Source: Nymphaea colorata (lineage: Eukaryota; Streptophyta; Magnoliopsida; Nymphaeales; Nymphaeaceae). From it: a stretch of DNA of 64,000 bases. Under the pieces are notes generated by a model. The model was not told the DNA's origin. It ran no database searches and worked only from the letters and a program-made list of their open reading frames with translations. The DNA lies in contig NC_045148.1 of the NCBI RefSeq assembly GCF_008831285.2, positions 15,292,802 to 15,356,801 of the forward strand, given 5' to 3'. Shown here in pieces: positions 15,510-45,329 of this stretch. The position numbers and the translations under genes were made by a program. Numbering within the stretch: the stretch's first letter is position 1; every line of letters starts with the position of its first letter.

Positions 15510-18500
15510 TGTTTGCATCCCAAAATTTTCATTGGTTTTGGAGTGCTCCAGAAAAATAAGGTTTTTGTTTTGAAAGAGGAAAGAAAGGGACTCGCCCGTC
15601 GGTACGAGGATCGACCATTCCCGGCGCCTTTACCGGGGGTAATCAACCCAAGGACTATGTTTATCATTGATGCATTTCGTTTTAACTTAAACATCTTTTT
15701 GATTCTATATGCGGTGTAGAAAATATTGAAAGTTTGGAGTTTCAAACTTTTGAAAAGGTTCTTGAAGAATTGCTTGAAAAAGTGAAATGTTTTGAGGAAA
15801 AAGTGAAACTAGTAAATATCATCTGAAAAACTTGTGAAAACATTTTGAAATCACTTTAGTGTTCTCTTAAGACTTTAAGTAGGTTTGAGATTTTGCTCTA
15901 ATTCGGTTACCACCTAGCTAGAGCTCCATCCCTTCTTGCTTAAGTTCTTTTAGAGAGGTGCTTGTGATCATAAGTGAAATAAAGTGGGTGAGAATGCATG
16001 AATGCATTTACCCTATATGATTGAAAAAAAGTAAAACATTCCTACCACAACATTCATCTAATATCATTCCTACTACAACATACATCTAAGATTTCGTTGT
16101 TATAATTATTATATATAAGAAGGAAAAGTTTTTGAAAATGGATAGAGATTGTAGACCATCAAGCATGATTCCAATATTGGGTCATTACTTGATTTGTGGT
16201 CTTATTGAAGTTGGTAAATAGAAAGTTCATGAGATGAGAATGTTAAGAAGAATACAAGAGATAAAACACTCTTATGAAAGGAAAGAGAGAGATATAGAGA
16301 AAGACATGCATATTTGTGTACATATCATCACATATAAAGAGAAAAAGATGTATTGATTCGAAGAGAAAGATAGATTTTAGAGGAAAAGAAAAATATCGTA
16401 CGCATATATGGGTATGAGAAATGTTATAAGAGAAGATATTTGTCTTGAAAAGAGGAATAAATATTTGAAAGAGAGGAGATGGAACACATGTACATACGTA
16501 TTCATGCACAATAGAAAGTGAAAGCATAGAGAGAGAAAGATGGGGGTCATCATGTTGGCATAAATGTATATAACATGTGTATACATCCATACCTTCACAA
16601 GATTAAAAAAAATCAAGGAACAACTTAAAATTACCAACTTCAAATTTAATGTGGGCCGGAGGGGAGCTTGGACTCATGCAAGAGTCTAATCTAAGTCCCT
16701 AAGGCCATATTAAAAGGTTCTTTTTGAAAATGTTTTGGAAAATATGATTTATATAAGTATAGAATGTTATTATTTAGTTTGTTGTAAGGGCTATATTTCT
16801 TCCACCGTTGGGTATGAAAGAAAACAAGCAACATAACGAAGCACTCGTTAGGGTTCCTAATGTGATGATTAAGAAAGAATCTAGCGCAAAATGTCATGAA
16901 AATGCATATTAATATGTACATTTTCGTGAGGGTTTATCCCGGGTTGGACAAGTCCCAACCTCAAAAATTAATATGAAAATAAAGAGTCCCCAAACCACAC
17001 TCTCATTCCCGACATGCATTCACATGTAAGTAAAGAACCAAACAACTATGCATGCATAATATATAGATAACTTTCAAGGAAGGAAAGAAAGAAAGAGGAT
17101 AATGAAAAAAAGCAAAGTTCAATTAGAAGGGAAGACATGATGTAACTATGAATTGATATACCACCTCATCTTCTCATGTTCCCGGTGCACTTGAGTATAG
17201 CCACTTGAATCTAAAATAAAGATTGAGAGCTATCTCTTTTGGCCATGGAGAAATGAGGAAGAGAGGAAAATAAGAGGAAACAAAAAAAAAAACAATAAGA
17301 ATGTATTCATGAAAAGAAAGAACATGATTAAAATGAAAGATCATCTCATCTTTCTATGCTCCCGGTGCACTTTGAGTATAGCCTCTTGTCTCTAAAAAGA
17401 GATTGAGAGCTACCTTTTTTAGCCGTGGGGAGATGAAGATGAGAAGAAAATGTAGAAAGAGATACAATAACGAAGAAATGAAATAACAAGAATAAGACTA
17501 TATTGAAGAAATGAAATAACAATAACAACAAAAATATATTCATTAAGGAAAAGAATAACAACAACAAGAATATATATTGAAGAGAAGAAAGAGCAAGAAG
17601 ATATTGATAAAGAGAAAGAACAAGAACAACAAGAATACTTGAAAGAGCATGATTTAATCATAAAATAAAATATCATCTCATCTTCTCATGCTCCCGGTGC
17701 ATTTGAGCATAGCCTCTTGTCTCTAAAAAGAGGTTGAGTGCTATCTCCTTTGGCCATGGGGAGATGAAGATGTGAAGAGAAAATGAAAACAACAACAAGA
17801 CTATATTTAAGAAAAAGAAATAACATAATAATAAAAATATTAATGAAAAGAAAGAAGAGAGAAATGAGAGGGATGAAGATTACATACCTCTAATGGGAAA
17901 TGACCTAAGAAAGATGAACACCTTCACTTGAAGATCCCCTTTTGAATGAAGCTCCAAGAGTGCTTGCTCTAAGTTGGAGAAGGAAATGGAAAGAGGGAGA
18001 GGGAGAGAGAGAGAGAGAGAGCTCAAGAGAAACTCTAAGTCTTCAAGTGAGAATACACTAGAGTTTCTCTCAAGGACCAATCTTGCCCAAGAGGGAGGAT
18101 ATAGGGGGGTATTTATAGAGGATTTTGAAGCCAAAACCCAAAATTTGATTTTTTTTGACCTAAAAAGACTAAAATCACCCTCCAAAAGGAGATTTTTTTG
18201 GCCAAAAGGAAGGGCAAATCGGTCTTGTCCACCCAAAAAGACTAAAATTACCCTCTAAAAGGATGTTTTTTGGTCAAAAGGAGGGGTAAATTGGTCTTGT
18301 TTACCAAAAAGACTAAAATCACCCTCTAAAAGGAGGTTTTTTGGTCAAAAGGAGGGGCAAATCGGTCTTGTTTAAAAAAGACTAAAATCACCCTCTAAAA
18401 GGAGGTTTTTTGATCAAAAGGAGGGGCAAATCGGTCTTGTTTAAAAAAAGACTAAAATCACCCTCTAAAAGGAGGTTTTTTGATCAAAAGGAGGGGCAAA

Positions 18501-18758
18501 TCGGTCTTGTTTAAAAAAAGACTAAAATCACCCTCTAAAAGGAGGTTTTTGGTCAAAAGAAAGGGCAAATTAGTCTTAAATAATTGATTTGGATCTGAAC
18601 TTGGGTTTTGGATCTAAAATTAGTATTTTGGATCTGAGAGTAGTATTTTGGATTTAATTTGGATCTGAAAGTTGTATTTTGAAAATCTTGTGCCTAAATT
18701 TGAATTTCGCACTTGGATAAAACATCATAGTCCTTTAGAAAAATTTGGGGTGATTACA
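15510..18758 (-). repeat. 3' LTR of Gypsy element (version A, left end)
   Basis: 3249-bp LTR. On the + strand it runs from TGTTTGCATCCC to GGGGTGATTACA, so on the element's own strand it starts TGTAATCACC and ends GCAAACA. It contains three imperfect ~100-bp repeats carrying CTCCCGGTGCA and TCTAAAAAGAG (about 17161-17265, 17341-17444 and 17671-17778), GA-rich simple sequence near 17975-18020, and a minisatellite at 18164-18576. The open frames in it are low-complexity and not credible genes. Confidence 0.93.
18164..18576. repeat. Minisatellite inside the Gypsy LTR (~66-72-bp unit)
   Basis: About six tandem units, each containing AAAGACTAAAATCACCCTC and GGGGCAAATCGGTCTTG. The same array occurs in the other LTR copies at about 30586-30920, 32104-32518 and 44464-44882. 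It lies near the transcription-initiating side of the LTR on the element's strand. Confidence 0.9.
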
Positions 18759-18773
18759 GATGCCCCTCTTTGT
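18759..18773 (-). other. Polypurine tract of Gypsy element (version A)
   Basis: On the minus strand AACAAAGAGGGGCATC abuts the LTR start TGTAATCACC, as expected for the plus-strand primer. Confidence 0.7.
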
Positions 18774-18851
18774 TAATAAGCCGGTGTTAGCCGTGCTTAG
18801 TGACAAAGATAAACGCCACAAATTTTTCAAACAAGACATTTTCATAGAGAT

Positions 18852-19146
18852 GTTTCAGGCTTTACCCCTTACCTGAATGGGTTGTTTGAGCTTAAATTGC
18901 AGGTTTAACCCCTTACCTGCATGGGTTTGCCGATTTCAAATTCAGGATTAACCCCCCTGAATGGGTTGTCTTGACTTGCATCACAAGTTGAACCCTTTAA
19001 CTGTGTGGGTTGCTTTGGCTTGTAGCACAGGTTTAACCCCTTTGCCTGCATGGGTTGCTTTGGCTAGCATTGCATGTTTAACCCCTTGCCTGCATGGGTT
19101 GCCCTCATATTGCGGGTTTAACCCTTTACCTGCACGGGTTGCTCTC
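18852..19146. repeat. ~50-bp tandem repeat in the 3' non-coding part of Gypsy element
   Basis: Five or six degenerate units built around GGTTTAACCCCTT and CCTGCATGGGTTG, between the end of integrase and the polypurine tract. The same array is present in version B at about 32792-33085. No open frame uses it. Confidence 0.85.
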
Positions 19147-19277
19147 AAGCTCTGAGCGATAAAAATAAAAATGCCCCAGTGTAATTGTCATGTTTTACAA
19201 CTGGGAAGAATCTAGATTGAATAGTCGATGTGGAAACACAAATGATTGACATTGATTGGAAAATGAATACAAGAGAA

Positions 19278-21281
19278 CTAGACATAAAATTTCTTGAGGT
19301 GAAGGGCATTAACAGGATCGGCAAATTCCACCCCATCAGCATCAATTAGTCGGTATGAATTGTGGGGCAAAACTTCCTTAATGACATATGGGCCTTCCCA
19401 ATTTGGTGCCCACTTGCCTCGTGGTCGTCCTCTCAGGTACACTGAAGATCGTAGGACCGAGTCATTCACTTTGAACTGTCTCTCGATAACTGACTTGGCA
19501 AATTGTCTGGCTACCCTTTGGCGATAAGCTTCAGCATGTTCAGCCGCTTTTAGCCTCTTTTCATCTAGCAAATCGAGTTGCATTAGCCTTTTTTGTTGAT
19601 ATTGAGTAAGAGGGAGCTCTATGAGAGAAGCGAACTTCAAAGCAGGTTTCAACACATGTAATGGTAGAACCACTTCTGTTCCATAGACTAGCTCTGCTGG
19701 AGTGGCATTTGTTGGAGTTCTCATAGTGGTGCGATATGCCCATAGAGCGTTGTGCATCTTTTCATGCCAATCTCTTCCTGTTTCTACTGTCCGTTCCAAG
19801 ATGCGGATCAGGATCTTGTTGGTAGCCTCTGCTTGTCCATTGCCTTGGGGGTAATAAGGAGCTGAAAAATGGTGCGTGATGTGGTATTTGCTGCACAACT
19901 GTCTCATCTTTTCATTCTTGAAATGAGTTCCATTGTCTGATACTATATCATGAGGGACTCCAAATCTGCAAAGAAGATTTTTGTGAATGAAGGACACTAC
20001 ATGACGTCCTTCCACCGTTCTAAGTGTGACGACTTCTACCCACTTGGTAAAATAATCTGTTGCAGCAAGAAAATACTTATGGCCGTTAGAAGCTGCAGGG
20101 GATATCGGTCCGACTACGTCAAAGGCCCACATTGAAAACGGCCAAGGAGATGTCACAGAATGCAAGTGAGATGCTGGGGCATGAATTACTGGAGCATGCA
20201 GTTGACATTCTTTGCATCTTTTGACAAATTGGTGACAATCTTTTTGCATGGTAGGCCAATAATACCCTGCTCGAATTATTTGTTTGGTGAGGGTTTGGTA
20301 ACCAACATGGCCTCCACAATCTCCTCGATGTGATTCTTCGATTACTTTCTTTGCCTCATCTTCATCAAGGCACCGAGAGTATTCAGTGCTAAATCCACGT
20401 CTGTATAATACCCCTGCTAGGATAAAGTACCTTGCTGACATACGTTGTATTGCTTTTTGTTCATTTTTAGACATTTCAGTCGGGAATTCTCCGCTTTCAA
20501 TATACCTTTTGATGTCATGGTACCAAGGCGTATCCCCGCCTTGGATATGATGAACATGCGCCATCGTTTCAAAAGCAGGGTGTTCTAATCTTCCAATCTC
20601 AAAAGAGCGGATTGCTTCATTGGTTCGAAAAGTGATGGTTGATCCTAAGCTCGCGAGGCCATCCGCAATAGGGTTACCTTCTCTCTTTACGTGAGCCAAT
20701 TGTACTTCTTCGAATTGACAGATTAAGGAGGTAGCAATTTCTTGATATGGCACCAACTTTTCATCTTTGACTTGCCATTCTCCATTCACTTGGTTTATAA
20801 TAAGCTGAGAGTCGCCGAAGGCATGCACTCTTTTTACTTGAAAACTCAATAAAGAACGAAGTCCTTGTATGAGGGCTTCATATTCAGCCATGTTATGGGT
20901 ACATGGAAAATCAAGTTTCAAAGAGTACGGGATCATTTCGCATTCTGGAGTGATGAGTAAGATGCCTATGCCTGCTCCCATCACATTTCTGGACCCGTCA
21001 AAGTACATCTTCCATGTCGAAACCGTTTCCAATCTTAGTACATGTTCATCTGGAAACTCATCATTTGTTCTGATTTCTTCGTACTGAGGGAAGTCTGCTA
21101 ACTGATCCGCAATTGTTTGTCCTTTGATTGACTTTTGAGACACATATTCAAGATCATATTGCATCAACAGAACTTGCCATTTTGCGATACGCCCATTAAG
21201 GAATGGTTGTTCCAAGATGTACTTGAGAGGATTTAGTTTGGAGAGTATCTTGACCTCACAAGCCAATAAGTAATGTCTCAA
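19278..21281 (-). CDS. Gypsy pol: RNase H, archaeal-type RNase H and integrase (version A)
   Basis: A 667-codon open frame. Residues 1-75 are the C-terminal part of the Ty3-type RNase H/connection (RHYLLACEVKILSK, then KWQVLLMQYDLEY). About residues 90-215 form a second, archaeal-type RNase H with catalytic-type acids in YFDGSRN, MAEYEALIQ, FGDSQLI and IADGLASLG. The integrase follows with an HHCC zinc finger (HVGYQTL to CKECQLH), the DDE core (FDVVGP, DNGTHF, and YPQGNGQAEA with Glu), and a C-terminal GKWAPNWEGPYVI block ending ALHLKKFYV. The segment is preceded in the same frame by one TAG (21285-21287), so it is a downstream part of pol and not an independent gene. The dual RNase H is characteristic of Tat/Ogre elements. 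Confidence 0.9.
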   Translation of the reverse strand: MRHYLLACEVKILSKLNPLKYILEQPFLNGRIAKWQVLLMQYDLEYVSQKSIKGQTIADQLADFPQYEEIRTNDEFPDEHVLRLETVSTWKMYFDGSRNVMGAGIGILLITPECEMIPYSLKLDFPCTHNMAEYEALIQGLRSLLSFQVKRVHAFGDSQLIINQVNGEWQVKDEKLVPYQEIATSLICQFEEVQLAHVKREGNPIADGLASLGSTITFRTNEAIRSFEIGRLEHPAFETMAHVHHIQGGDTPWYHDIKRYIESGEFPTEMSKNEQKAIQRMSARYFILAGVLYRRGFSTEYSRCLDEDEAKKVIEESHRGDCGGHVGYQTLTKQIIRAGYYWPTMQKDCHQFVKRCKECQLHAPVIHAPASHLHSVTSPWPFSMWAFDVVGPISPAASNGHKYFLAATDYFTKWVEVVTLRTVEGRHVVSFIHKNLLCRFGVPHDIVSDNGTHFKNEKMRQLCSKYHITHHFSAPYYPQGNGQAEATNKILIRILERTVETGRDWHEKMHNALWAYRTTMRTPTNATPAELVYGTEVVLPLHVLKPALKFASLIELPLTQYQQKRLMQLDLLDEKRLKAAEHAEAYRQRVARQFAKSVIERQFKVNDSVLRSSVYLRGRPRGKWAPNWEGPYVIKEVLPHNSYRLIDADGVEFADPVNALHLKKFYV

Positions 21282-21284
21282 CTT

Positions 21285-21740
21285 CTAACACATCCAAACC
21301 AATGCCAGACAAGTTTTCTCTATTGGAGAATACTTCTTTTCGTACTGAACAAAAGTCTTGCTAATGTAATAGATTGCATATTCGATGCGACTTCCTTCCT
21401 CATATTGTGCCAAAAAGCCGCCACATGCTGACTCATTCACTGTGATGTAAAGCAGCAGTGGTCTTCCCAACGTTGGTGGTTTTAGAATTGGTGGATTTAG
21501 AAGGTATTTCTTGATCCTTTCGAATGACTGTTGGCATTCAAAACCCCATTCAAACTTGACACCTTTCCTCAGTAGCTGGTTGAATGGCTCGCATCTCATG
21601 GCCAGATTGGAAATGAATCGTCTGATGGATTGGATTCGTCCTTGCAAGCTTCGCAACTCCTTGATATTGGTAGGTGGTGGCATATCGATTATTGCCTTGG
21701 CTTTTGTAAGATCCATTTCAATTCCCTTCTTACTGACCAT
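21285..21740 (-). pseudogene. Gypsy pol: RT thumb/RNase H segment (version A)
   Basis: Continues RT after a frame change near 21740-21760 and ends at TAG 21285-21287. It has the RT C-terminal block MVSKKGIEMDLTKAKAI and the Ty3 RNase H start (LLLYITVNESACGGFL, then YSPIEKTCLALVW). The shift relative to the upstream RT frame and the TAG are both present at the equivalent places in version B, unlike the many other indels, so they are probably real lesions of this element. Confidence 0.85.
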
Positions 21741-22765
21741 GAAACCAACAGTTTGCCTGACTCAACCCCAAACACACATTTTTGAGGATTCAGGCGAAGC
21801 TTGTACTGTAAAAGCCTCTCGAATACTTGGGCAAGAGTTTCAATGTGATCTTCTCTTGTCTTGGATTTGATCAATATGTCATCGATATATGCATCCATGA
21901 TTTTATGCATCTGGTCATGGAAGATGGCGGCCATGGCTCTTTGATAGGTTGCTCCAGCATTCTTCAACCCAAATGGCATTACCGTGTAACAAAAAGTACC
22001 CCATGGTGTAGTAAAAGCGGTCTTAGGTTGATCTTTGACTGCTAATTTGATTTGATTATATCCCGAATATCCATCCATGAAAGAAAACATTGCATGGCCT
22101 GCAGTACTGTCTACCAATAGATCAATGTTTGGAAGAGGATAATCATCCTTCGGTGTGGCTTTGTTCAAGTCTCGAAAGTCGATGCACAACCTAACTTTGC
22201 CATTTTTCTTGGGGACCACCACGATGTTCGCCAACCATTCGGGGTAATCGATGGCACGAATGAATTTTGCCTTTAGCAAGTCCTCTAGTCCTTCTTTTAC
22301 AGGGCCTTCTAGTCGAGGGTCAAGCTTGCGCAATTTTTGCTTAATCGGCTTGCAATTAGGATTTAAGGGCAAACGATGTTCAACCAATTGGGGGTCTAAG
22401 CCTGGCATATCTTCATAAGTCCAAGCAAAAGCTTCTTGGTTACTTATAAGAAAGTCCACCAATCTTTTCTTCTCATTCGCTGACAAACTGGTGCCAATTT
22501 GAAGAATTTTAGGATCTTCACTGGTTCCAATATTAATTTCTTCAATTGGATCATTCACAAAAGATGAGGGATGCTCTTGTTTCTGAATCTGAGTGAATTC
22601 TGGTAATTCTGACTCGGGTATTGCCATAGGTTCCATTTCACCGGCTGCTTGTTTGATAAATGCTTTCTGGGGGGACTTTCGTGGAAAAAGAATAAACTGA
22701 GACATATTGAGTTCCGACATCCTGTAAAGAGGATAAAGGAAAGAGTTGGACGAAATTGACAACAA
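21689..22765 (-). CDS. Gypsy reverse transcriptase (version A)
   Basis: RT palm and fingers: WLANIVVVPKKNGKVRLC, DFRDLNKATPKDDYPLP, SFMDGYSGYNQI, MPFGLKNAGATYQRAM and catalytic YIDD, ending CVFGVESGKLL just before the frame change. The likely first codon of this part is ATG 22720-22718, which immediately follows a pyrimidine-rich stretch ending CAG. This reads like a 3' splice site, as in Ogre elements where an intron separates protease and RT. The frame differs from that of the upstream gag-protease, consistent with splicing or separate translation. Confidence 0.88.
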   Translation of the reverse strand: MLSISSNSFLYPLYRMSELNMSQFILFPRKSPQKAFIKQAAGEMEPMAIPESELPEFTQIQKQEHPSSFVNDPIEEINIGTSEDPKILQIGTSLSANEKKRLVDFLISNQEAFAWTYEDMPGLDPQLVEHRLPLNPNCKPIKQKLRKLDPRLEGPVKEGLEDLLKAKFIRAIDYPEWLANIVVVPKKNGKVRLCIDFRDLNKATPKDDYPLPNIDLLVDSTAGHAMFSFMDGYSGYNQIKLAVKDQPKTAFTTPWGTFCYTVMPFGLKNAGATYQRAMAAIFHDQMHKIMDAYIDDILIKSKTREDHIETLAQVFERLLQYKLRLNPQKCVFGVESGKLLVSWSVRRELKWILQKPRQ

Positions 22766-22918
22766 AAAATTACTTGCATTTGCATATATATAAAAAAAAA
22801 GTTCTTAGTTCATAGAATGGGTTCTCTCATGAGACAAGACAAAAAGATGTTCAAAATTACAAAATTCATGGGAGGATTTTGAAACAAAAGTGAATACTAT
22901 TAGCCCCCAAGATCTTCT

Positions 22919-24430
22919 TCAAATTCCTTCATGATATCCCAGTTCTCTCATGTTCATCTGAAAAGATATGCTAATTGGTTGCAAGATGCCATCTTCATTT
23001 TTCCCAAGGCCAGTGAATGGACGGTAGCCACCTCTCAGAAGCAACTGAAAACCCTTGGGGTTTTTCATGAAATGAACGTACAATAGGTGTTCTTGGTAAC
23101 TTGCACAATTGCTTGAAATAGCATAAGCATTCCCGAATGGTTCATCTATCTCCATGTTCTGCATCCATTCTTCCAAAGGTCTGTCCTTTGTTGTTCTTAA
23201 GCTCGGTACATCTACCGGATCAATTGGCCTAGGGAGCATAGGTTGCATCAACCTCTTGACCGGATCCTCAGCACGGACAGTGATGACTGATGGACCAAAA
23301 TTCCATTTTAGGCATTGATGAAGAGTGGATGAGATCGCTCGTACTTGATGGATCCAAGGTCGTCCCAAAAGCAGGTTGTATGATGGTGGTACGTCTACCA
23401 CATGAAATACAATGCAATGGCTAGTATTTTCAATGATCACATTCATGTCGAGGGTACCTTTGCTGTTCATGCATCGGCCATCGTATCCGTAGATCTTGGT
23501 ATTATCAGAACGATATCCGTTTTCACGAAACCCCAATGTTTTAGCCGTGAGATCAGGACAAATATTCAAACCACTTCCTCCATCAATCAAAACATGTGGC
23601 ACCGTCATCCCATTGACCTGAACAACGATGTAAAGAGCATCTTCATGGAAATATCCCCATTTTGAGAGGTCTTTTTCTGAGAAGGTAATTGACTGATTTT
23701 TAGAAGCTTGAATCGAGTCTCCCTCATCCATATGCTCTTCCAAGGGGAGAACGTCCAAATAGCATGGATCTTCATCTGAGGAGTCATTTGATGATTCGTC
23801 GCCTTGTAAGATAAAAGTCTTTGGAATCATAGGAAGTTTCTTGGGCAAACTTTCTATCCTGCCTTTCATCATAGCAATGAAATCTAGAGGTTCCTTACCT
23901 TGGTCTACCACCATGATTTTGTATGAGCTGCTCCCAATATAAGGTCGAATGTGCTCTTGTGGATGGTACGGAAGTGGAGTGACTGTAGTGATCATGGCTA
24001 CTACCGCCTTTCCGTGGTCAGGGAATGGATTCCTTAGTATTTCAGGGGTACTATCATCACAAATCTTGAGATCTTTGTTGATGAAGTCTTGAATAATATT
24101 TTTGAGAACAAAACAATCCTCAGTGTCATGACCAGGGGTACGATGAAACTTGCACAGTTTTTCTTTATTTCCTCCCATCATTTTCGGAGGCTCTGACACT
24201 TTTGGCAAGACGATAGTTCCTTTGGCGAGAAGGTATTCCAGGATCTTCTCCCGAGACTGGCTCAGAGGAGTGAATTTTCGGTCGTAGCTCCAACCTGGGT
24301 GTTTGTTCTTCCTTTCATCGTCGCCTTTGAGAAACTGTGTGTTCTTCTTGAAACTGAGTCCCTTGTCATGCTTGTAGTTATTATCATGGTCCTTTCTAAT
24401 GCCAGCATTGGCTATGAATTGTGCAGGCAA
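22919..24430 (-). CDS. Gypsy gag C-terminus and protease (version A)
   Basis: Contains a CHHC zinc knuckle (CKFHRTPGHDTEDC) and an aspartic protease with the D-G-G-S-G active-site loop (VLIDGGSGLNI) and the LLLGRPWIH block. It ends with a glycine-rich, G-patch-like segment and the stop after HEGI. In version B this frame is continuous with more upstream gag (36850-38808), so the 24412-24430 break here is a one-base call difference. Confidence 0.88.
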   Translation of the reverse strand: MPAQFIANAGIRKDHDNNYKHDKGLSFKKNTQFLKGDDERKNKHPGWSYDRKFTPLSQSREKILEYLLAKGTIVLPKVSEPPKMMGGNKEKLCKFHRTPGHDTEDCFVLKNIIQDFINKDLKICDDSTPEILRNPFPDHGKAVVAMITTVTPLPYHPQEHIRPYIGSSSYKIMVVDQGKEPLDFIAMMKGRIESLPKKLPMIPKTFILQGDESSNDSSDEDPCYLDVLPLEEHMDEGDSIQASKNQSITFSEKDLSKWGYFHEDALYIVVQVNGMTVPHVLIDGGSGLNICPDLTAKTLGFRENGYRSDNTKIYGYDGRCMNSKGTLDMNVIIENTSHCIVFHVVDVPPSYNLLLGRPWIHQVRAISSTLHQCLKWNFGPSVITVRAEDPVKRLMQPMLPRPIDPVDVPSLRTTKDRPLEEWMQNMEIDEPFGNAYAISSNCASYQEHLLYVHFMKNPKGFQLLLRGGYRPFTGLGKNEDGILQPISISFQMNMRELGYHEGI

Positions 24431-25691
24431 TTGTGTCCTTCCTCCTTTCTTTCCATTTCTTTGTACTTAGGAGCAATAATTCCATCAAAATCTCCTTCAT
24501 CAATCCCTTCTTCTATCGAGTTTGCTTGTTCAATTAACTCAGCAAAGGTTTTGATCGGGGCATTGCGGATGAGACTTTTCAAGGGTTGGGCAAGATTTTT
24601 CCTAATGAGTGATAAGGCTTGTGTCTCAGAAATGGGCTCCTTCATCTTATTGCATTGCATTCTCCATTTTTGGATGAATTCTCGAGCCTTTTCTCCCTGT
24701 TTCTGACGAAGACTGCAAATGGTACTGAGGGTTGGAGCCATGGGAGCATTTTGTTCAAATCTTTCAACAAACATGTTAATCAACTTGTCAAACTCCTTCA
24801 GCTCGATTGGATTGATATTTTCTTTATACCATTGTGTGGCAATGCCTTCAAGACTTCTTGGAAAATATCGGAACAAAGCTCTGTTATTTGTCCGAATTTT
24901 GTAGCAATCATTGAAAAAGGTTGAAAGATGAACGTGTGGACAGGTGGTTCCATCATATCTGATGAATTCTCTGGGCAAGCCTTTCACGTCTTCGTCTCCT
25001 TCAATGCCAAGGTAGTAGTCCTCACATGAGTATGAACGTTTCCCCTTCCCCCTAAGCTCAAGATTGTTCATTCTTTTCTCCATTTCGTAGAATCTGCGCT
25101 TAGTCGGACTTTCATCATCACTTGATTCGACCAATTCTGGTTTGGTCTTTTTCTTTTTGCCCTTGATCTCCTTTACTTTTTCTTCAGAACTCTCACTGTC
25201 TGAGCTGCTGCTAGTGATGTATTTCTTTGTCTTTTTTACTTTCTTGGTAGGTTTTCTCTTCCTTTTGGGTTTCTCTTCCGAACTTTCAGTGGTGATAGGA
25301 CTGGGTGAGCTGTTTTCTATCATAACATCTTTTCTCTTTTTATTTTTCTTTGTTGTCTTTTTCTTTTGAGAGAAGACAGTTCGGGTTTTTCTTCCTTACT
25401 AGTTGTCGAATCTGAACTCAAATGGCCTTCATCCTCAACAAAAGACTTGTTTTTCTTCTTTCTTTTCTGCTTGGCAGTCTTTTCATTATCCGTCTCTGGA
25501 GTAACCATCAAAGCCTTTTGCTCTTCTTGCTCCTTCATAAATCGCTCCATGAACAAACGGAACATATAGTAAGCTTCTGGCTCGATTGCTGGGAGGCCAA
25601 GTGTTTCTGGACGGAGTTCAGAGGATGAAGCCTCGTTTTGAGGAGTCTGCTTAGCTTGCGATCTAGTTTCAACCATCTTGTTGGCTTTCAA
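24412..25691 (-). pseudogene. Gypsy gag N-terminal and capsid region, frameshifted (version A)
   Basis: Two open pieces, 25320-25691 and 24412-25323, carry MVETRSQAKQ at the start, a highly charged Lys/Glu/Ser-rich stretch, then the retrotransposon capsid block (WYKENINPIELKEFDKL, FIQKWRMQCNKMKEP). The break near 25370 is one T short of version B, while version B has its own break near 39160 that version A lacks. The complementary pattern suggests base-call errors rather than true mutations. Confidence 0.8.
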
Positions 25692-25843
25692 GTATTCACC
25701 TTATGACATAAGAAAATAGAGTTATTGGATAGAAATGATGACAAAATGAAGGTTCATATTGCATTACAAGTTTAAAAGTTACATCCATAGCACTAATAAA
25801 ATGACAACGACAGAAGGAATACAAAGTTGACAACATAAAACTT

Positions 25844-27818: not shown

Positions 27819-27835
27819 TCCCATCACGGTCGCCA
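27819..27835 (-). other. Primer binding site of Gypsy element (version A)
   Basis: On the minus strand TGGCGACCGTGATGGGA begins two bases after the 5' LTR end (27838). TGGCGACC fits the 3' end of a tRNA-Arg. The exact isoacceptor is not determined. Confidence 0.7.
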
Positions 27836-32698: not shown

Positions 32699-33213
32699 GA
32701 TGCCCCTCTTTGTTAATAAGCCGGTGTTAGCCGTGCTTAGTGACAAAGATAAACGCCACAAATTTTTCAAACAAGACATTTTCATAGAGATGTTTCAGGC
32801 TTTACCCCTTACCTGAATGGGTTGTTTGAGCTTAAATTGCAGGTTTAACCCCTTACCTGCATGGGTTTGCCGATTTCAAATTCAGGTTTAACCCCCTGAA
32901 TGGGTTGCCTTGACTTGCATCACAAGTTGAACCCTTTAACTGTGGGTTGCTTTGGCTTGTAGCACAGGTTTAACCCCTTTGCCTGCATGGGTTGCTTTGG
33001 CTAGCATTGCAGGTTTAACCCCTTGCCTGCATGGGTTGCCCTCATATTGCAGGTTTAACCCTTTACCTGCACGGGTTGCTCTCAAGCCCTGAGCGATAAA
33101 AAAAAAATGCCCCAGTGTAATTGTCATGTTTTACAACTGGGAAGAATCTAGATTGAATAGTCGATGTGGAAACACAAATGTTTGACATTGATTGGAAAAT
33201 GAATACAAGAGAA

Positions 33214-35213: not shown

Positions 35214-35216
35214 CTT

Positions 35217-35671
35217 CTAACACATCCAAACCAATGCCAGACAAGTTTTCTCTATTGGAGAATACTTCTTTTCGTACTGAACAAAAGTCTTGCTAATGTA
35301 ATAGATTGCATATTCGATGCGACTTCCTTCCTCATATTGTGCCAAAAAGCCGCCACATGCTGACTCATTCACTGTGATGTAAAGCAGCAGTGGTCTTCCC
35401 AACGTTGGTGGTTTTAGAATTGGTGGATTTAGAAGGTATTTCTTGATCCTTTCGAATGACTGTTGGCATTCAAAACCCCATTCAAACTTGACACCTTTCC
35501 TCAGTAGCTGGTTGAATGGCTCGCATCTCATGGCCAGATTGGAAATGAATCGTCTGATGGATGGATTCGTCCTTGCAAGCTTCGCAACTCCTTGATATTG
35601 GTAGGTGGTGGCATATCGATTATTGCCTTGGCTTTTGTAAGATCCATTTCAATTCCCTTCTTACTGACCAT
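35217..35671 (-). pseudogene. Gypsy pol: RT thumb/RNase H segment (version B)
   Basis: Equivalent of 21285-21740. It ends at the same TAG (35217-35219) as version A and has one further base loss near 35562 that version A lacks. The shared TAG and the shared frame change at its upstream end support these two lesions being genuine. Confidence 0.8.
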
Positions 35672-36696
35672 GAAACCAACAGTTTGCCTGACTCAACCCC
35701 AAACACACATTTTTGAGGATTCAGGCGAAGCTTGTACTGTAAAAGCCTCTCGAATACTTGGGCAAGAGTTTCAATGTGATCTTCTCTTGTCTTGGATTTG
35801 ATCAATATGTCATCGATATATGCATCCATGATTTTATGCATCTGGTCATGGAAGATGGCGGCCATGGCTCTTTGATAGGTTGCTCCAGCATTCTTCAACC
35901 CAAATGGCATTACCGTGTAACAAAAAGTACCCCATGGTGTAGTAAAAGCGGTCTTAGGTTGATCTTTGACTGCTAATTTGATTTGATTATATCCCGAATA
36001 TCCATCCATGAAAGAAAACATTGCATGGCCTGCAGTACTGTCTACCAATAGATCAATGTTTGGAAGAGGATAATCATCCTTCGGTGTGGCTTTGTTCAAG
36101 TCTCGAAAGTCGATGCACAACCTAACTTTGCCATTTTTCTTGGGGACCACCACGATGTTCGCCAACCATTCGGGGTAATCGATGGCACGAATGAATTTTG
36201 CCTTTAGCAAGTCCTCTAGTCCTTCTTTTACAGGGCCTTCTAGTCGAGGGTCAAGCTTGCGCAATTTTTGCTTAATCGGCTTGCAATTAGGATTTAAGGG
36301 CAAACGATGTTCAACCAATTGGGGGTCTAAGCCTGGCATATCTTCATAAGTCCAAGCAAAAGCTTCTTGGTTACTTATAAGAAAGTCCACCAATCTTTTC
36401 TTCTCATTCGCTGACAAACTGGTGCCAATTTGAAGAATTTTAGGATCTTCACTGGTTCCAATATTAATTTCTTCAATTGGATCATTCACAAAAGATGAGG
36501 GATGCTCTTGTTTCTGAATCTGAGTGAATTCTGGTAATTCTGACTCGGGTATTGCCATAGGTTCCATTTCACCGGCTGCTTGTTTGATAAATGCTTTCTG
36601 GGGGGACTTTCGTGGAAAAAGAATAAACTGAGACATATTGAGTTCCGACATCCTGTAAAGAGGATAAAGGAAAGAGTTGGACGAAATTGACAACAA
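35620..36696 (-). CDS. Gypsy reverse transcriptase (version B)
   Basis: 358-codon frame identical in translation to 21689-22765, including YIDD. It has the same candidate splice acceptor just upstream of the MSELN start, and the same frame change after VESGKLL. Confidence 0.88.
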   Translation of the reverse strand: MLSISSNSFLYPLYRMSELNMSQFILFPRKSPQKAFIKQAAGEMEPMAIPESELPEFTQIQKQEHPSSFVNDPIEEINIGTSEDPKILQIGTSLSANEKKRLVDFLISNQEAFAWTYEDMPGLDPQLVEHRLPLNPNCKPIKQKLRKLDPRLEGPVKEGLEDLLKAKFIRAIDYPEWLANIVVVPKKNGKVRLCIDFRDLNKATPKDDYPLPNIDLLVDSTAGHAMFSFMDGYSGYNQIKLAVKDQPKTAFTTPWGTFCYTVMPFGLKNAGATYQRAMAAIFHDQMHKIMDAYIDDILIKSKTREDHIETLAQVFERLLQYKLRLNPQKCVFGVESGKLLVSWSVRRELKWILQKPRQ

Positions 36697-36849
36697 AAAA
36701 TTACTTGCATTTGCATATATATAAAAAAAAAGTTCTTAGTTCATAGAATGGGTTCTCTCATGAGACAAGACAAAAAGATGTTCAAAATTACAAAATTCAT
36801 GGGAGGATTTTGAAACAAAAGTGAATACTATTAGCCCCCAAGATCTTCT

Positions 36850-38808
36850 TCAAATTCCTTCATGATATCCCAGTTCTCTCATGTTCATCTGAAAAGATAT
36901 GCTAATTGGTTGCAAGATGCCATCTTCATTTTTCCCAAGGCCAGTGAATGGACGGTAGCCACCTCTCAGAAGCAACTGAAAACCCTTGGGGTTTTTCATG
37001 AAATGAACGTACAATAGGTGTTCTTGGTAACTTGCACAATTGCTTGAAATAGCATAAGCATTCCCGAATGGTTCATCTATCTCCATGTTCTGCATCCATT
37101 CTTCCAAAGGTCTGTCCTTTGTTGTTCTTAAGCTCGGTACATCTACCGGATCAATTGGCCTAGGGAGCATAGGTTGCATCAACCTCTTGACCGGATCCTC
37201 AGCACGGACAGTGATGACTGATGGACCAAAATTCCATTTTAGGCATTGATGAAGAGTGGATGAGATCGCTCGTACTTGATGGATCCAAGGTCGTCCCAAA
37301 AGCAGGTTGTATGATGGTGGTACGTCTACCACATGAAATACAATGCAATGGCTAGTATTTTCAATGATCACATTCATGTCGAGGGTACCTTTGCTGTTCA
37401 TGCATCGGCCATCGTATCCGTAGATCTTGGTATTATCAGAACGATATCCGTTTTCACGAAACCCCAATGTTTTAGCCGTGAGATCAGGACAAATATTCAA
37501 ACCACTTCCTCCATCAATCAAAACATGTGGCACCGTCATCCCATTGACCTGAACAACGATGTAAAGAGCATCTTCATGGAAATATCCCCATTTTGAGAGG
37601 TCTTTTTCTGAGAAGGTAATTGACTGATTTTTAGAAGCTTGAATCGAGTCTCCCTCATCCATATGCTCTTCCAAGGGGAGAACGTCCAAATAGCATGGAT
37701 CTTCATCTGAGGAGTCATTTGATGATTCGTCGCCTTGTAAGATAAAAGTCTTTGGAATCATAGGAAGTTTCTTGGGCAAACTTTCTATCCTGCCTTTCAT
37801 CATAGCAATGAAATCTAGAGGTTCCTTACCTTGGTCTACCACCATGATTTTGTATGAGCTGCTCCCAATATAAGGTCGAATGTGCTCTTGTGGATGGTAC
37901 GGAAGTGGAGTGACTGTAGTGATCATGGCTACTACCGCCTTTCCGTGGTCAGGGAATGGATTCCTTAGTATTTCAGGGGTACTATCATCACAAATCTTGA
38001 GATCTTTGTTGATGAAGTCTTGAATAATATTTTTGAGAACAAAACAATCCTCAGTGTCATGACCAGGGGTACGATGAAACTTGCACAGTTTTTCTTTATT
38101 TCCTCCCATCATTTTCGGAGGCTCTGACACTTTTGGCAAGACGATAGTTCCTTTGGCGAGAAGGTATTCCAGGATCTTCTCCCGAGACTGGCTCAGAGGA
38201 GTGAATTTTCGGTCGTAGCTCCAACCTGGGTGTTTGTTCTTCCTTTCATCGTCGCCTTTGAGAAACTGTGTGTTCTTCTTGAAACTGAGTCCCTTGTCAT
38301 GCTTGTAGTTATTATCATGGTCCTTTCTAATGCCAGCATTGGCTATGAATTGTGCAGGCAATTGTGTCCTTCCTCCTTTCTTTCCATTTTCTTTGTACTT
38401 AGGAGCAATAATTCCATCAAAATCTCCTTCATCAATCCCTTCTTCTATCGAGTTTGCTTGTTCAATTAACTCAGCAAAGGTTTTGATCGGGGCATTGCGG
38501 ATGAGACTTTTCAAGGGTTGGGCAAGATTTTTCCTAATGAGTGATAAGGCTTGTGTCTCAGAAATGGGCTCCTTCATCTTATTGCATTGCATTCTCCATT
38601 TTTGGATGAATTCTCGAGCCTTTTCTCCCTGTTTCTGACGAAGACTGCAAATGGTACTGAGGGTTGGAGCCATGGGAGCATTTTGTTCAAATCTTTCAAC
38701 AAACATGTTAATCAACTTGTCAAACTCCTTCAGCTCGATTGGATTGATATTTTCTTTATACCATTGTGTGGCAATGCCTTCAAGACTTCTTGGAAAATAT
38801 CGGAACAA
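36850..38808 (-). CDS. Gypsy gag and protease (version B)
   Basis: A 652-codon continuous frame covering capsid (WYKENINPIELKEF, FIQKWRMQC), the CHHC zinc knuckle (CKFHRTPGHDTEDC), the aspartic protease loop (IDGGSG) and the C-terminal glycine-rich segment. It is the best single representation of the element's gag-protease. Its upstream end at 38808 is set by a one-base loss near 38848 (four A where version A has five). True gag starts further upstream, probably at ATG 39607-39605. Confidence 0.9.
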   Translation of the reverse strand: MFRYFPRSLEGIATQWYKENINPIELKEFDKLINMFVERFEQNAPMAPTLSTICSLRQKQGEKAREFIQKWRMQCNKMKEPISETQALSLIRKNLAQPLKSLIRNAPIKTFAELIEQANSIEEGIDEGDFDGIIAPKYKENGKKGGRTQLPAQFIANAGIRKDHDNNYKHDKGLSFKKNTQFLKGDDERKNKHPGWSYDRKFTPLSQSREKILEYLLAKGTIVLPKVSEPPKMMGGNKEKLCKFHRTPGHDTEDCFVLKNIIQDFINKDLKICDDSTPEILRNPFPDHGKAVVAMITTVTPLPYHPQEHIRPYIGSSSYKIMVVDQGKEPLDFIAMMKGRIESLPKKLPMIPKTFILQGDESSNDSSDEDPCYLDVLPLEEHMDEGDSIQASKNQSITFSEKDLSKWGYFHEDALYIVVQVNGMTVPHVLIDGGSGLNICPDLTAKTLGFRENGYRSDNTKIYGYDGRCMNSKGTLDMNVIIENTSHCIVFHVVDVPPSYNLLLGRPWIHQVRAISSTLHQCLKWNFGPSVITVRAEDPVKRLMQPMLPRPIDPVDVPSLRTTKDRPLEEWMQNMEIDEPFGNAYAISSNCASYQEHLLYVHFMKNPKGFQLLLRGGYRPFTGLGKNEDGILQPISISFQMNMRELGYHEGI

Positions 38809-38810
38809 AG

Positions 38811-39607
38811 CTCTGTTATTTGTCCGAATTTTGTAGCAATCATTGAAAAGGTTGAAAGATGAACGTGTGGACAGGTGGTTCCATCATATCTGATGAATTC
38901 TCTGGGCAAGCCTTTCACGTCTTCGTCTCCTTCAATGCCAAGGTAGTAGTCCTCACATGAGTATGAACGTTTCCCCTTCCCCCTAAGCTCAAGATTGTTC
39001 ATTCTTTTCTCCATTTCGTAGAATCTGCGCTTAGTCGGACTTTCATCATCACTTGATTCGACCAATTCTGGTTTGGTCTTTTTCTTTTTGCCCTTGATCT
39101 CCTTTACTTTTTCTTCAGAACTCTCACTGTCTGAGCTGCTGCTAGTGATGTATTTCTTGTCTTTTTTACTTTCTTGGTAGGTTTTCTCTTCCTTTTGGGT
39201 TTCTCTTCCGAACTTTCAGTGGTGATAGGACTGGGTGAGCTGTTTTCTATCATAACATCTTTTCTCTTTTTATTTTTCTTTGTTGTCTTTTTCTTTTTGA
39301 GAGAAGACAGTTCGGGTTTTTCTTCCTTACTAGTTGTCGAATCTGAACTCAAATGGCCTTCATCCTCAACAAAAGACTTGTTTTTCTTCTTTCTTTTCTG
39401 CTTGGCAGTCTTTTCATTATCCGTCTCTGGAGTAACCATCAAAGCCTTTTGCTCTTCTTGCTCCTTCATAAATCGCTCCATGAACAAACGGAACATATAG
39501 TAAGCTTCTGGCTCGATTGCTGGGAGGCCAAGTGTTTCTGGACGGAGTTCAGAGGATGAAGCCTCGTTTTGAGGAGTCTGCTTAGCTTGCGATCTAGTTT
39601 CAACCAT
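38811..39607 (-). pseudogene. Gypsy gag N-terminal part, frameshifted (version B)
   Basis: MVETRSQAKQ start at 39607, the charged Lys/Glu-rich low-complexity stretch, and the YYLGIEGDEDVKGLPREF block. It is broken near 39160 and 38848 by single-base losses that version A does not have. The charged stretch is probably intrinsically disordered. Confidence 0.78.
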
Positions 39608-39776
39608 CTTGTTGGCTTTCAAGTATTCACCTTATGACATAAGAAAATAGAGTTATTGGATAGAAATGATGACAAAATGAAGGTTCATATTGCATTACAA
39701 GTTTTAAAAGTTACATCCATAGACACTAATAAAATGACAACGACAGAAGGAATACAAAGTTGACAACATAAAACTT

Positions 39777-40997
39777 TTAGGGAAGGATGGATGGTGGTCG
39801 GTTGGCATCCCACCACTCAGCATATTCCTTCTTCACCACTGGGCCTATGAACCAAGTGTATGATATTTGTGTCTTCCATTCTTGTCGAGCTACTGCAAAC
39901 AATGCCGTCCATTGAGGAGAACTAAGGTCAAATTCAGGAATAGCTCCAATTGGTGCATGCACAGAGACCATCTTCTGCCTTTGAGAGAACTGTCTCATAC
40001 ATCTATCAGCACAATAATCAACTATGAAGTAAGGGCCCAAGAGTGTGGTACGCCCATGATGATGGTGAGTGTATCGAGGTAGGCTCTGCCGACGATCACA
40101 ATAATCCCAAATGATCTCTCCTTCATTCAATTGCTCGATCAAACGACGGTATTGCTCCAAGGTTGTTAATGATCCATCAGTGTTTCTGAATAGACTGGCT
40201 TGGGGTCCCGCATGCTTGAGGAACCACAATTGTAAAGCATATGTGCATCCTTCTATGAAGTCGATATCTCCAATGGTAAAGCGAGTGAGTCCTCGGTAAA
40301 GGAAGGCTAAAGCTGTCATTGCTACTGACAAGTGTCGGGTCCCTCTATGCCCCCATACTCGAAAAAGTTGGGCAATACGGACATCTAAAAGGTCACTTCC
40401 ATTGGTAAAAAGGGTCACTCCTACTGTGCAGAGTATCATACAATGTTTAATTCTCCCTATGGCTTTTCGAGGTAGGGTAGAAGGTTCAACATAGGTTCCA
40501 AATTCTTCATACAAATTTTTCATGTTGATGCTTTGATTTTCATGGTTTTCTACTAAAGGCCAAGTTTTCCGTCCAGTAAAGTGAGCAATGAGGTCATTTG
40601 CATTGACCTTGGTTGGGTTCATAAGGAATTGTTTTTCCAATAGATCATTTGGGTCACAAGTTGGGGTAGGGAGGTCTAGTATTTCGGCAAATTTATCTAG
40701 TAATATTGTCATTTTTCCCCATGGAAACAAAAAAGAGGAGGTCCTTGGGTTCCAAGGCTCGGCGATTGCATGTACCAAATTTCCATCAACTGACTGCATT
40801 CCTCCAGCTGCCACTGTCTCTAGCCCACATTCTTCAAAGTAAGAAGGAAACATCCGAGAGAAGGTGGGATGCCAAGTCCGATACCATTCGGGAGCCAAAG
40901 GTTGAGACTCAAGAGAAATGTAGGTGGACCGTTTGGGACCTTCCCCAAAGAGGATGTGATCATAAGGGAATGTGACACCACGTTGGAAAGAATACAT
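39777..40997 (-). CDS. Gypsy ORF1: plant mobile domain-like protein
   Basis: Intact 406-codon frame upstream of gag on the element's strand, about 170 bp before the gag ATG. The N-terminal half has a WNPRTSSFLFPWGKMTILL block followed by FAEILDLPTP, resembling the W-x-P-x-T-x-x-F-x-x-P-x-G-E-M-T-x-T-L signature of plant mobile domain (aminotransferase-like, MAIN/MAIL) proteins and related retroelement-borne domains. The C-terminal half contains RRLIEQLNEGEIIWDYC and ends WDANRPPSILP. No transmembrane segment or known catalytic motif is evident. An ORF1 before gag is a feature of Ogre elements, whose ORF1 function is unknown. The family assignment is by eye and uncertain; the gene itself is well supported. 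Confidence 0.8.
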   Translation of the reverse strand: MYSFQRGVTFPYDHILFGEGPKRSTYISLESQPLAPEWYRTWHPTFSRMFPSYFEECGLETVAAGGMQSVDGNLVHAIAEPWNPRTSSFLFPWGKMTILLDKFAEILDLPTPTCDPNDLLEKQFLMNPTKVNANDLIAHFTGRKTWPLVENHENQSINMKNLYEEFGTYVEPSTLPRKAIGRIKHCMILCTVGVTLFTNGSDLLDVRIAQLFRVWGHRGTRHLSVAMTALAFLYRGLTRFTIGDIDFIEGCTYALQLWFLKHAGPQASLFRNTDGSLTTLEQYRRLIEQLNEGEIIWDYCDRRQSLPRYTHHHHGRTTLLGPYFIVDYCADRCMRQFSQRQKMVSVHAPIGAIPEFDLSSPQWTALFAVARQEWKTQISYTWFIGPVVKKEYAEWWDANRPPSILP

Positions 40998-41796
40998 CTT
41001 GAATGATGACTCTAAAAGATAAAGATGGAATTAATGGAAAACATTGACTATGTTGACAAAGACAATATGAGGTAGATGTGCGGAATGAGGTTGCAAATCA
41101 TCACATAAGGTTTCACGCACATAAACATCTATCATGATTTTTTTTTTTTTTTTTTTTTTTTTTAGAAAATTGGGTATAGGAACCTAATTGAGATAATTTT
41201 ATATCACGATAATCCGATATCAAGTTATGCTTATATACCTTACCCAAATGGCTTAGTATGAGCATAGATTCTTCCTTAGGCAACTAAAGGTATAGCTCAT
41301 CAACTTCTTCTTGATCACTCGTCGATATACCATAAATTACCACTCATGGTACTAACGAGGGGGCGTTCCCGCCCAAGGTGTGGTCTAGTTGTAAGGCTTA
41401 GTCTTGTGCTACCGCCAAAGACCAAGCCCGGCAACATGATGACCGGGACAAATAGGTATGAGGAATTTTGAAATATAAGAAATCATATAAAATGAGTTGT
41501 CTCTAATGCAATGTTGCCTAAGTTTGAAGATTAAAATAGAAGAGCAAACATGGTTTTCAAACAACTCCTAAATTGAGAAGGGTGGTATGTGATCATAGAT
41601 ATGTGTGAACATGATTGATCCTTCTCAATTAGTCTTATGTGCAAGAAAACAATCACAATCACAATCACCAAACAATACAATGAAATGCCAATGGGGTCGA
41701 GGCCAAAAGAGGGGACATGCTTTATCATTGGCAATGTATGAGATGTTCAAATTATTGAAAATGTATCAATTATAATCATAGCCAAACGATAACGGG
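40998..41796 (-). other. 5' leader of Gypsy element (version B)
   Basis: About 0.8 kb of non-coding sequence between the PBS and ORF1, including a long T run (about 41139-41163 on the + strand) and no credible ORF. The equivalent in version A is 27055-27818. Confidence 0.7.
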
Positions 41797-41813
41797 TCCC
41801 ATCACGGTCGCCA
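41797..41813 (-). other. Primer binding site of Gypsy element (version B)
   Basis: Minus-strand TGGCGACCGTGATGGGA, two bases after the LTR end at 41816, identical to version A. TGGCGACC suggests a tRNA-Arg primer. Confidence 0.72.
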
Positions 41814-41815
41814 TC

Positions 41816-44800
41816 TGTTTGCATCCCAAAATTTTCATTGGTTTTGGAGTGCTCCAGAAAAATAAGGTTTTTGTTTTGAAAGAGGAAAGAAAGGGACTCG
41901 CCCGTCGGTATGAGGATCGACCATTCCCGGCGCCTTTACCGGGGGTAATCAACCCAAGGACTATGTTTATCATTGATGCATTTTGTTTTAACTTAAACAT
42001 CTTTTTGATTCTATATGCGGTGTATAAAATATTGAAAGTTTGGAGTTTCAAACTTTTGAAAAGGTTCTTGAAGAATTGCTTGAAAAAATGAAATGTTTTG
42101 AGGAAAAAGTGAAACTAGTAAATATCATCTGAAAAACTTGTGAAAACATTTTGAAATCACTTTAGTGTTCTCTTAAGACTTTAAGTAGGTTTGAGATTTT
42201 GCTCTAATTCGGTTACCACCTAGCTAGAGCTCCATCCCTTCTTGCTTAAGTTCTTTTAGAGAGGTGCTTGTGATCATAAGTGAAATAAAGTGGGTGAGAA
42301 TGCATGAATGCATTTACCCTATATGATTGAAAAAAAGTAAAACATTCCTACCACAACATTCATCTAATATCATTCCTACCACAACATACATCTAAGATTT
42401 CGTTGTTATAATTATTATATATAAAAAGGAAAAGTTTTTGAAAATGGATAGAGATTGTAGACCATCAAGCATGATTCCAATATTGGGTCATTACTTGATT
42501 TGTGGTCTTATTGAAGTTGGTAAATAGAAAGTTCATGAGATGAGAATGTTAAGAAGAATACAAGAGATAAAACACTCTTATGAAAGGAAAGAGAGAGATA
42601 TAGAGAAAGACATGCATATTTGTGTACATATCATCACATATAAAGAGAAAAAGATGTATTGATTCGAAGAGAAAGAGAGATTTTAAAGGAAAAGAAAAAT
42701 ATCGTACGCATATATGGGTATGAGAAATGTTATAAGAGAAGATATTTGTCTTGAAAAAAGGAATAAATATTTGAAAGAGAGGAGATGGAACACATGTACA
42801 TACGTATTCATGCACAATAGAAAGTGAAAGCATAGAGAGAGAAAGATGGGGGTCATCATATTGGCATAAATGTATATAACATGTGTATACATCCATACCT
42901 TCACAAGATTAAAAAAAATCAAGGAACAACTTAAAATTACCAACTTCAAATTTAATGTGGGCCGGAGGGGAGCTTGGACTCATGCAAGAGTCTAATCTAA
43001 GTCCCTAAGGCCATATTAGAAGGTTCTTTTTGAAAATGTTTTGGAAAATATGATTTATATAAGTATAGAATGTTATTATTTAGTTTGTTGTAAGGGCTAT
43101 ATTTCTTCCACCGTTGGGTATGAAAGAAAACAAGCAACATAACGAAGCACTCGTTAGGGTTCCTAATGTGATGATTAAGAAAGAATCTAGCGCAAAATGT
43201 CATGAAAATGCATATTAATATGTACATTTTCGTGAGGGTTTATCCCGGGTTGGACAAGTCCCAACCTCAAAAATTAATATGAAAATAAAGAGTCCCCAAA
43301 CCACACTCTCATTCCCGACATGCATTCACATGTAAGTAAAGAACCAAACAACTATGCATGCATAATATATAGATAACTTTCAAGGAAGGAAAGAAAGAAA
43401 GAGGATAATGAAAAAAAGCAAAGTTCAATTAGAAGGGAAGACATGATGTAACTATGAATTGATATACCACCTCATCTTCTCATGTTCCCGGTGCACTTGA
43501 GTATAGCCACTTGAATCTAAAATAAAGATTGAGAGCTATCTCTTTTGGCCATGGAGAAATGAGGAAGAGAGGAAAATAAGAGGAAACAAAAAAAAAAACA
43601 ATAAGAATGTATTCATGAAAAGAAAGAACATGATTAAAATGAAAGATCATCTCATCTTTCTATGCTCCCGGTGCACTTTGAGTATAGCCTCTTGTCTCTA
43701 AAAAGAGATTGAGAGCTACCTTTTTTAGCCGTGGGGAGATGAAGATGAGAAGAAAATGTAGAAAGAGATACAATAACGAAGAAATGAAATAACAAGAATA
43801 AGACTATATTGAAGAAATGAAATAACAATAACAACAAAAATATATTCATTAAGGAAAAGAATAACAACAACAAGAATATATATTGAAGAGAAGAAAGAGC
43901 AAGAAGATATTGATAAAGAGAAAGAACAAGAACAACAAGAATACTTGAAAGAGCATGATTTAATCATAAAATAAAATATCATCTCATCTTCTCATGCTCC
44001 CGGTGCATTTGAGCATAGCCTCTTGTCTCTAAAAAGAGGTTGAGTGCTATCTCCTTTGGCCATGGGGAGATGAAGATGTGAAGAGAAAATGAAAACAACA
44101 ACAAGACTATATTTAAGAAAAAGAAATAACATAATAATAAGAATATTAATGAAAAGAAAGAAGAGAGAAATGAGAGGGATGAAGATTACATACCTCTAAT
44201 GAGAAATGACCTAAGAAAGATGAACACCTCCACTTGAAGATCCCCTTTTGAATGAAGCTCCAAGAGTGCTTGCTCTAAGTTGGAGAAGGAAATGGAAAGA
44301 GGGAGAGGGAGAGAGAGAGAGAGAGAGCTCAAGAGAAACTCTAAGTCTTCAAGTGAGAATACACTAGAGTTTCTCTCAAGGACCAATCTTGCCCAAGAGG
44401 GAGGATATAGGGGGTATTTATAGAGGATTTTGGAGCCAAAACCCAAAATTTGATTTTTTTTGACCTAAAAAGACTAAAATCATCCTCCAAAAGGAGATTT
44501 TTTTGGCCAAAAGGAATGGCAAATCGGTCTTGTCCACCCAAAAAGACTAAAATTACCCTCTAAAAGGATGTTTTTTGGTCAAAAGGAGGGGTAAATTGGT
44601 CTTGTTTACCAAAAAGACTAAAATCACCCTCTAAAAGGAGGTTTTTTGGTCAAAAGGAGGGGCAAATCGGTTTTGTTTAAAAAAGACTAAAATCACCCTC
44701 TAAAAGGAGGTTTTTTGATCAAAAGGAGGGGCAAATCGGTCTTGTTTAAAAAAAGACTAAAATCACCCTCTAAAAGGAGGTTTTTTGATCAAAAGGAGGG

Positions 44801-45074
44801 GCAAATCGGTCTTGTTTAAAAAAAGACTAAAATCACCCTCTAAAAGGAGGTTTTTGGTCAAAAGAAAGGGCAAATTAGTCTTAAATGATTGATTTGGATC
44901 TGAACTTGGGTTTTAGATCTAAAATTAGTATTTTGGATTTAATTTGGATTTGAGAGTAGTATTTTGGATTTAATTTGGATCTGAAAGTTGTATTTTGAAA
45001 ATCTTGTGCCTAAATTTGAATTTCGCACTTGGATAAAACATCATAGTCCTTTAGAAAAATTTGGGGTGATTACA
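41816..45074 (-). repeat. 5' LTR of Gypsy element (version B, right end)
   Basis: 3259 bp. Very similar to 15510-18758, with about a dozen substitutions noticed by eye in the first 1.6 kb. It contains three ~100-bp repeats and the minisatellite (44464-44882). It is followed by the TSD CCGAG at 45075-45079. Confidence 0.93.
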
Positions 45075-45329
45075 CCGAGTTTCAATATATTTGGTCACTT
45101 AGTATCGTGATTGAAAGTCTTGCGGCCTTGTAGGTCTAATAAGATTATCAAATTCTTTTCAGTCTTCTCTGTGGGCCGTAAACATTTTATCATACATCCT
45201 TTTACTATTTTAGGCTATGATGCTTTGTTATTTGACATTCTGACAACGTAAAATTTGCCCATTATGTAATGTGCCACTAGCTTGTAGAATCGCAAGTCCT
45301 TTTTTGGTGCCAGAATGGGAGGTGTCGAA
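45075..45329. repeat. Right flank of Gypsy insertion, second assembly (matches 31113-31368)
   Basis: Starts with TSD CCGAG and matches 31113-31368 to the base where that contig stops. The sequence then continues into unique DNA. Confidence 0.92.

Follow-up and report, generated by a model that had tools for sequence, protein, structure and literature searches.

The 64,000-nt window, by which we mean the whole stretch of DNA analysed here, contains about 13.86 kb of sequence that appears on both sides of an assembly gap. Judging from the sequence, it is highly probable that this is one insertion printed twice from unmerged contig ends, and that the second copy is an assembly error (a homotype false duplication) and not biology. 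The overlap runs nearly from end to end, it has a single left junction and a doubled right flank, and the differences between its two versions are loaded towards the contig ends and biased in direction.

The gap, the sole one in the window, consists of exactly 100 N at 31369-31468. Version A (17517-31368), the 13,852 bp that lead up to the gap and close contig A, matches version B (31469-45329), the 13,861 bp with which contig B opens beyond it. This match is far beyond chance; it extends to the last base of contig A and to within 2 bases of the first base of contig B, as the BLAST local match in a self-comparison of the window begins at 17519/31471 and leaves the first two bases of version B outside. 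Global alignment of the two versions gives 87 mismatches and 158 gap events. Contig A terminates in the right flank of the element at ...GTGTCGAA, while contig B starts inside an LTR, later passes through the same right flank, and continues past 45329, beyond the equivalent of GTGTCGAA. The original prediction had described a stretch of about 13.86 kb present twice around the gap and a contig A that stops where the same sequence runs on in contig B, and both descriptions are borne out. The layout of the locus, apart from its LTRs, is as follows.

15505..15509, no strand: left target site duplication (TSD) CCGAG, read from the sequence
18759..27837, minus strand: internal region of version A, with a remnant of the plant mobile domain (PMD) eORF, gag, G-patch, RT, RNase H, second RNase H and integrase
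31113..31368, no strand: right flank in version A (the false copy), with a damaged TSD, forming the end of contig A (flank alignment)
31369..31468, no strand: assembly gap of 100 N, read from the sequence
32699..41815, minus strand: internal region of version B, delimited by ORFs and domains
45075..45079, no strand: right TSD CCGAG, read from the sequence
45080..45329, no strand: right flank of contig B, the counterpart of the sequence that closes contig A (flank alignment)

The left junction is seen once, outside the overlap, where CCGAG at 15505-15509 is followed by a complete LTR at 15510-18758 (called A5). The right CCGAG at 45075-45079 lies directly after the LTR at 41816-45074 (B3). Both TSDs had been predicted at these positions and are present there. 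The two flanks, 31113-31368 (256 bp) and 45075-45329 (255 bp), align over 253 bases with no mismatch and with 5 single-base gaps. An intact right TSD is found only in contig B, because two of the five flank gaps fall in the TSD beside the right LTR of contig A. Together, the global alignment and the mismatch-free flank agree with the earlier claim that the two versions carry the same part of one Gypsy insertion along with its right flank. The further claim that nothing but single-base indels separates the flanks is right as stated, but it does not extend to the LTR: between the right LTR of contig A (A3) and B3 there are 60 mismatches and 74 gap events.

An overlap is preferred to a second copy because a real tandem pair, to judge from the layout, would need the gap to fall exactly at the junction between the copies, so that this junction would coincide with both gap edges. 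The reading in question is that a 13.86-kb unit made up of a partial LTR, the internal region, an LTR and the flank was truly and recently duplicated in tandem, and that the gap happens to interrupt the pair. A very recent duplication would likewise give an identical middle part, and such a middle is indeed present: there is no difference event of any kind relative to version B in 21630-24455 of version A (2,825 bp), no mismatch in 19461-26350 (6,889 bp), and no event in the two 1-kb bins from 7000 to 9000 bp before the end of contig A. True divergence, however, would not climb towards the contig ends, nor would it strip bases from whichever copy lies near its own end, and we regard this reading as very improbable.

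The differences between the versions are mostly gaps and are concentrated at both contig ends, with each version worst near the end of its own contig. The positions of all 245 difference events are uneven along the overlap (KS p = 2e-42), and 59 of the 87 mismatches fall in 28501-31368 of version A. Among gaps of up to 3 bp, the stretch corresponding to the start of contig B (17517-22000 of version A) has 20 cases of bases missing from B and 5 of bases missing from A, while the stretch at the end of contig A (25501-31368) has 96 such cases in A and 18 in B. When the overlap is split at 24400, the counts of such gaps in B and in A are 20/6 against 20/98 (Fisher p = 7.5e-9), with loss favouring the version nearer its own contig end. 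Many of the single-base losses lie in runs of at least two identical bases, namely 41 of 59 in 25501-28500 of version A (baseline 51%) and 15 of 18 in the first part of version B (baseline 52%). Homopolymer error as the only cause was nevertheless rejected, as 18 of the 59 losses in A fall outside any run and A shows no clear enrichment for runs of at least four bases (p = 0.14). Between A5 and B3, the pair of LTRs remote from the gap, only 21 mismatches and 2 gaps occur in 3,248 aligned bases, which is the usual look of age. A clean middle with noisy ends and direction-biased losses would not be expected of a real older duplication, and this end-loaded profile therefore offers support, independent of reads, for the overlap of one insertion.

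The open reading frames of the two versions also speak for an overlap, with the exception of those for gag and G-patch, which weigh against it. The ORF with the second RNase H and integrase, near the start of contig B, is 668 aa long in A and split into three in B. The PMD ORF, near the end of contig A, is 417 aa long in B, whereas no more than 175 aa of it are left in one frame in A. The RT ORF has 371 aa and the same Pfam score in both versions. The gag and G-patch frames are mixed: one 677-aa ORF in B equals two ORFs in A, and the gag ORF of A extends further upstream than that of B. Ogre elements are characterised by two polyprotein ORFs with an intron-like stretch between them; here the gag/G-patch and RT domains lie in separate ORFs, and frames are broken elsewhere in the element.

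The LTRs are less simple. Four readings of them are present in the window, two of each side of the element:

15510..18758, minus strand: A5, left LTR (3' LTR in the coding sense), complete and far from the contig end (alignment)
27838..31112, minus strand: A3, right LTR of contig A, error-rich, with some variants absent from B3 (alignment)
31469..32698, minus strand: B5, partial left LTR that opens contig B, equivalent of 17517-18758 (alignment)
41816..45074, minus strand: B3, right LTR (5' LTR in the coding sense) of contig B, clean (alignment)
29766..29947, no strand: segment of A3 opposite the 52-bp stretch 17465-17516 of A5, coherent and about 81% like the neighbouring LTR stretch 17652-17840
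18162-18577, 30583-30922, 32107-32518 and 44467-44882: 70-bp tandem array in the LTRs, 5.9 copies in three readings and 4.9 in A3

An 11-bp stretch is found in both right LTRs (A3 and B3) and in neither left one (A5 and B5), a distribution that fits each LTR being given twice. Because of the segment at 29766-29947, A3 also carries about 130 bp extra (net). Among the 21 sites at which A5 and B3 differ, 16 are readable in A3 by both alignment routes; A3 agrees with B3 at 6 of them and with A5 at 10, and along these 16 sites it switches between the two states 7 times. In B5, 8 such sites are readable, 6 as in A5 and 2 as in B3. Where A3 agrees with A5, a C-to-T, G-to-A or G-to-T change is seen in B3 at 9 of the 10 sites; where A3 agrees with B3, A5 has G-to-A or C-to-T at 4 of the 6. 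A3 looks as if it were free of the mutations proper to either LTR, the direction of change being judged from these LTRs rather than from an outside copy. Plain random error as a full account of A3 was rejected, given that the B3 state is present at only 6 of 16 sites and that the extra segment is coherent.

A second pattern connects the two LTR parts that face the gap. At 1,135 sites that are readable in all four LTRs and at which A5 and B3 agree, B5 differs at 5 and A3 at 26. All five B5 variants recur with identical state in A3, against 0.04 expected if the changes were independent, as do both of the two that lie outside the tandem repeats (0.015 expected); the expected values assume changes with no context preference. 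Such sharing would be natural if A3 and B5 were one middle LTR of a three-LTR recombinant (LTR-internal-LTR-internal-LTR) formed by unequal crossing over, with the flank at 31113-31368 as a false extension; the five variants, missing from A5 and B3, are what this arrangement predicts. A single crossover, however, would give one change from the B3 to the A5 state and not seven over 16 sites, the 11-bp stretch is present in A3 and not in B5, so that the two are not one LTR, and an older event would leave mismatches in the internal region, of which there are none in 6.9 kb. The probability of such a recombinant is in our view close to negligible.

A second reading of the same LTR should match B3, and A3 does so at 6 of 16 sites; therefore, either foreign reads or another haplotype must be assumed. 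The latter would make the locus a heterotype false duplication, with one haplotype at the end of contig A, the other at the start of contig B, and both alleles of the insertion retained. Separate haplotypes would allow A3 to share the 11-bp stretch and the flank with B3 and yet have the A5 state at 10 of 16 sites, at 9 of which the mutation seems to have arisen in B3 and not in A3 (again with the direction deduced). Two haplotypes would hardly be expected, however, to show no mismatch in a middle part of 6,889 bp or in the 253 aligned flank bases, and they do not predict the diagonal sharing of all five B5 variants between the right LTR of contig A and the left LTR of contig B. A heterotype origin is thus given a small probability. 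A smaller one still is assigned to the possibility that A3 is a real allele, part of whose LTR was overwritten on one haplotype by gene conversion from another copy of the family, in which case the pair would be partly truly heterozygous.

The preferred reading, one insertion printed twice, would proceed as follows. A single Ogre-type LTR retrotransposon would occupy the locus, entered by one contig from the left and by another from the right, with some 13.86 kb common to both. Merging would have failed because the consensus is of low quality over the final 5-6 kb of contig A and the initial 3-4 kb of contig B. The LTR parts of both contig ends were probably blended with reads of other family copies. 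In the scaffolding step, the contigs would then have been set side by side with a 100-N spacer, and the overlap thereby printed twice. A plain overlap of one sequence would leave the state of A3 and the variants common to A3 and B5 unexplained, and reads from other copies of the family have probably entered a thin consensus at both edges of the gap. The statement in the original prediction that a single insertion explains everything can therefore be kept for the layout, for the one left and one right junction and for the profile of differences, though not for these two features of the LTRs.

Homotype false duplications, in the part of the VGP report (PMC8081667) that deals with them, are placed near contig boundaries or attributed to sequence left under-collapsed through sequencing errors, and they are about as long as a read. 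The section of Ko et al. (PMC9516828) on the marks of false duplication names a gap that separates the copies, very low depth in the homotype class and no heterozygous k-mers, and the description of purge_dups in PMC7203741 concerns haplotigs and heterozygous overlaps. The present case resembles the homotype class as presented in those parts of PMC8081667 and PMC9516828, for the copies meet at a contig boundary and are separated by a gap, consensus quality is unequal between them, and the middle has no mismatch; its 13.9 kb are within the range of long-read lengths (compare the same part of PMC8081667). Differences of the error-like kind are present, though not in pure form in the A3 LTR, and the LTR edges differ from that class in also holding variants that resemble other family copies. 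On features visible at sequence level, the likeness to the homotype class appears to hold. A literature search on contig-end overlaps with retrotransposons yielded no report on that subject.

The element is coded on the minus strand and, read in that direction, consists of the 5' LTR, a PBS-like stretch, the PMD ORF, gag, G-patch, RT, RNase H, a second RNase H (RVT_3) and integrase. The order of Pfam domains is RVT_1, RT_RNaseH_2/RT_RNaseH, RVT_3/RNase_H and then Integrase_H2C2 and rve. The plant mobile domain (PF10536, E 1.2e-19) lies in the ORF at 39777-41030 (minus) between the 5' LTR and gag, and the G-patch domain in the gag-side ORF at 36850-38883. The putative PBS, TGGCGACC..., follows the 5' LTR. 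A tRNA scan found no tRNA. In angiosperms, Ogre and Retand alike are recognised by an additional RNase H placed between the first one and integrase, and an ORF with a plant mobile domain is found in 57% of Ogre elements (PMC6317226). The part of PMC9289625 on these domains reports G-patch and PMD in plant Gypsy elements, with G-patch in Gypsy elements of some dicots. As in the Ogre lineage of Ty3/gypsy (Tat clade, PMC6317226), the second RNase H is placed here between RT-RNase H and integrase, and there is an extra ORF with the plant mobile domain; LTRs of about 3.25 kb with tandem repeats, a 5-bp TSD and a total of 15.6 kb in version A are alike as well. Because its second RNase H, PMD and G-patch match features reported for Ogre and Gypsy elements, it can be classed, by domain content, as an ordinary Ogre-type plant LTR retrotransposon, and no feature distinguishing it from that lineage was found.

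Without correction, an annotation would list two elements at a locus that most likely has one, which supports the earlier warning against counting two, and it would pair A5 with the corrupted A3. Dating the insertion from the LTR pair of contig A itself would be wrong: A5 and A3 differ by 56 mismatches in 3,116 aligned bases, as compared with 21 in 3,248 for A5 and B3, and the insertion would therefore look about 2.8 times older than it is. A profile with a clean middle, noisy ends and a directional bias is a useful sign of such overlaps when reads are not used.

Several other features were observed in the window. A Copia-type element at 1581-6870 has 487-bp LTRs that are 99.2% identical, the TSD GGCAG on both sides and three long consecutive ORFs separated by single stops (gag, integrase and RVT_2 domains), and it looks young. 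The minus-strand ORF at 9802-10293 gives a partial match to peptide methionine sulfoxide reductase (PF01625). An unbroken PPR ORF with an E motif (PF01535, PF20431), 470 aa from stop to stop, is located at 50442-51854; together with the plant mobile domain and the type of the element, it indicates plant DNA. At 53819-54194, a 187-bp unit is tandemly duplicated (two copies, 98%), and about 266 bp at 61908-62173 match their own reverse complement at 98%, forming a large palindrome that is possibly a foldback or MITE-like element.
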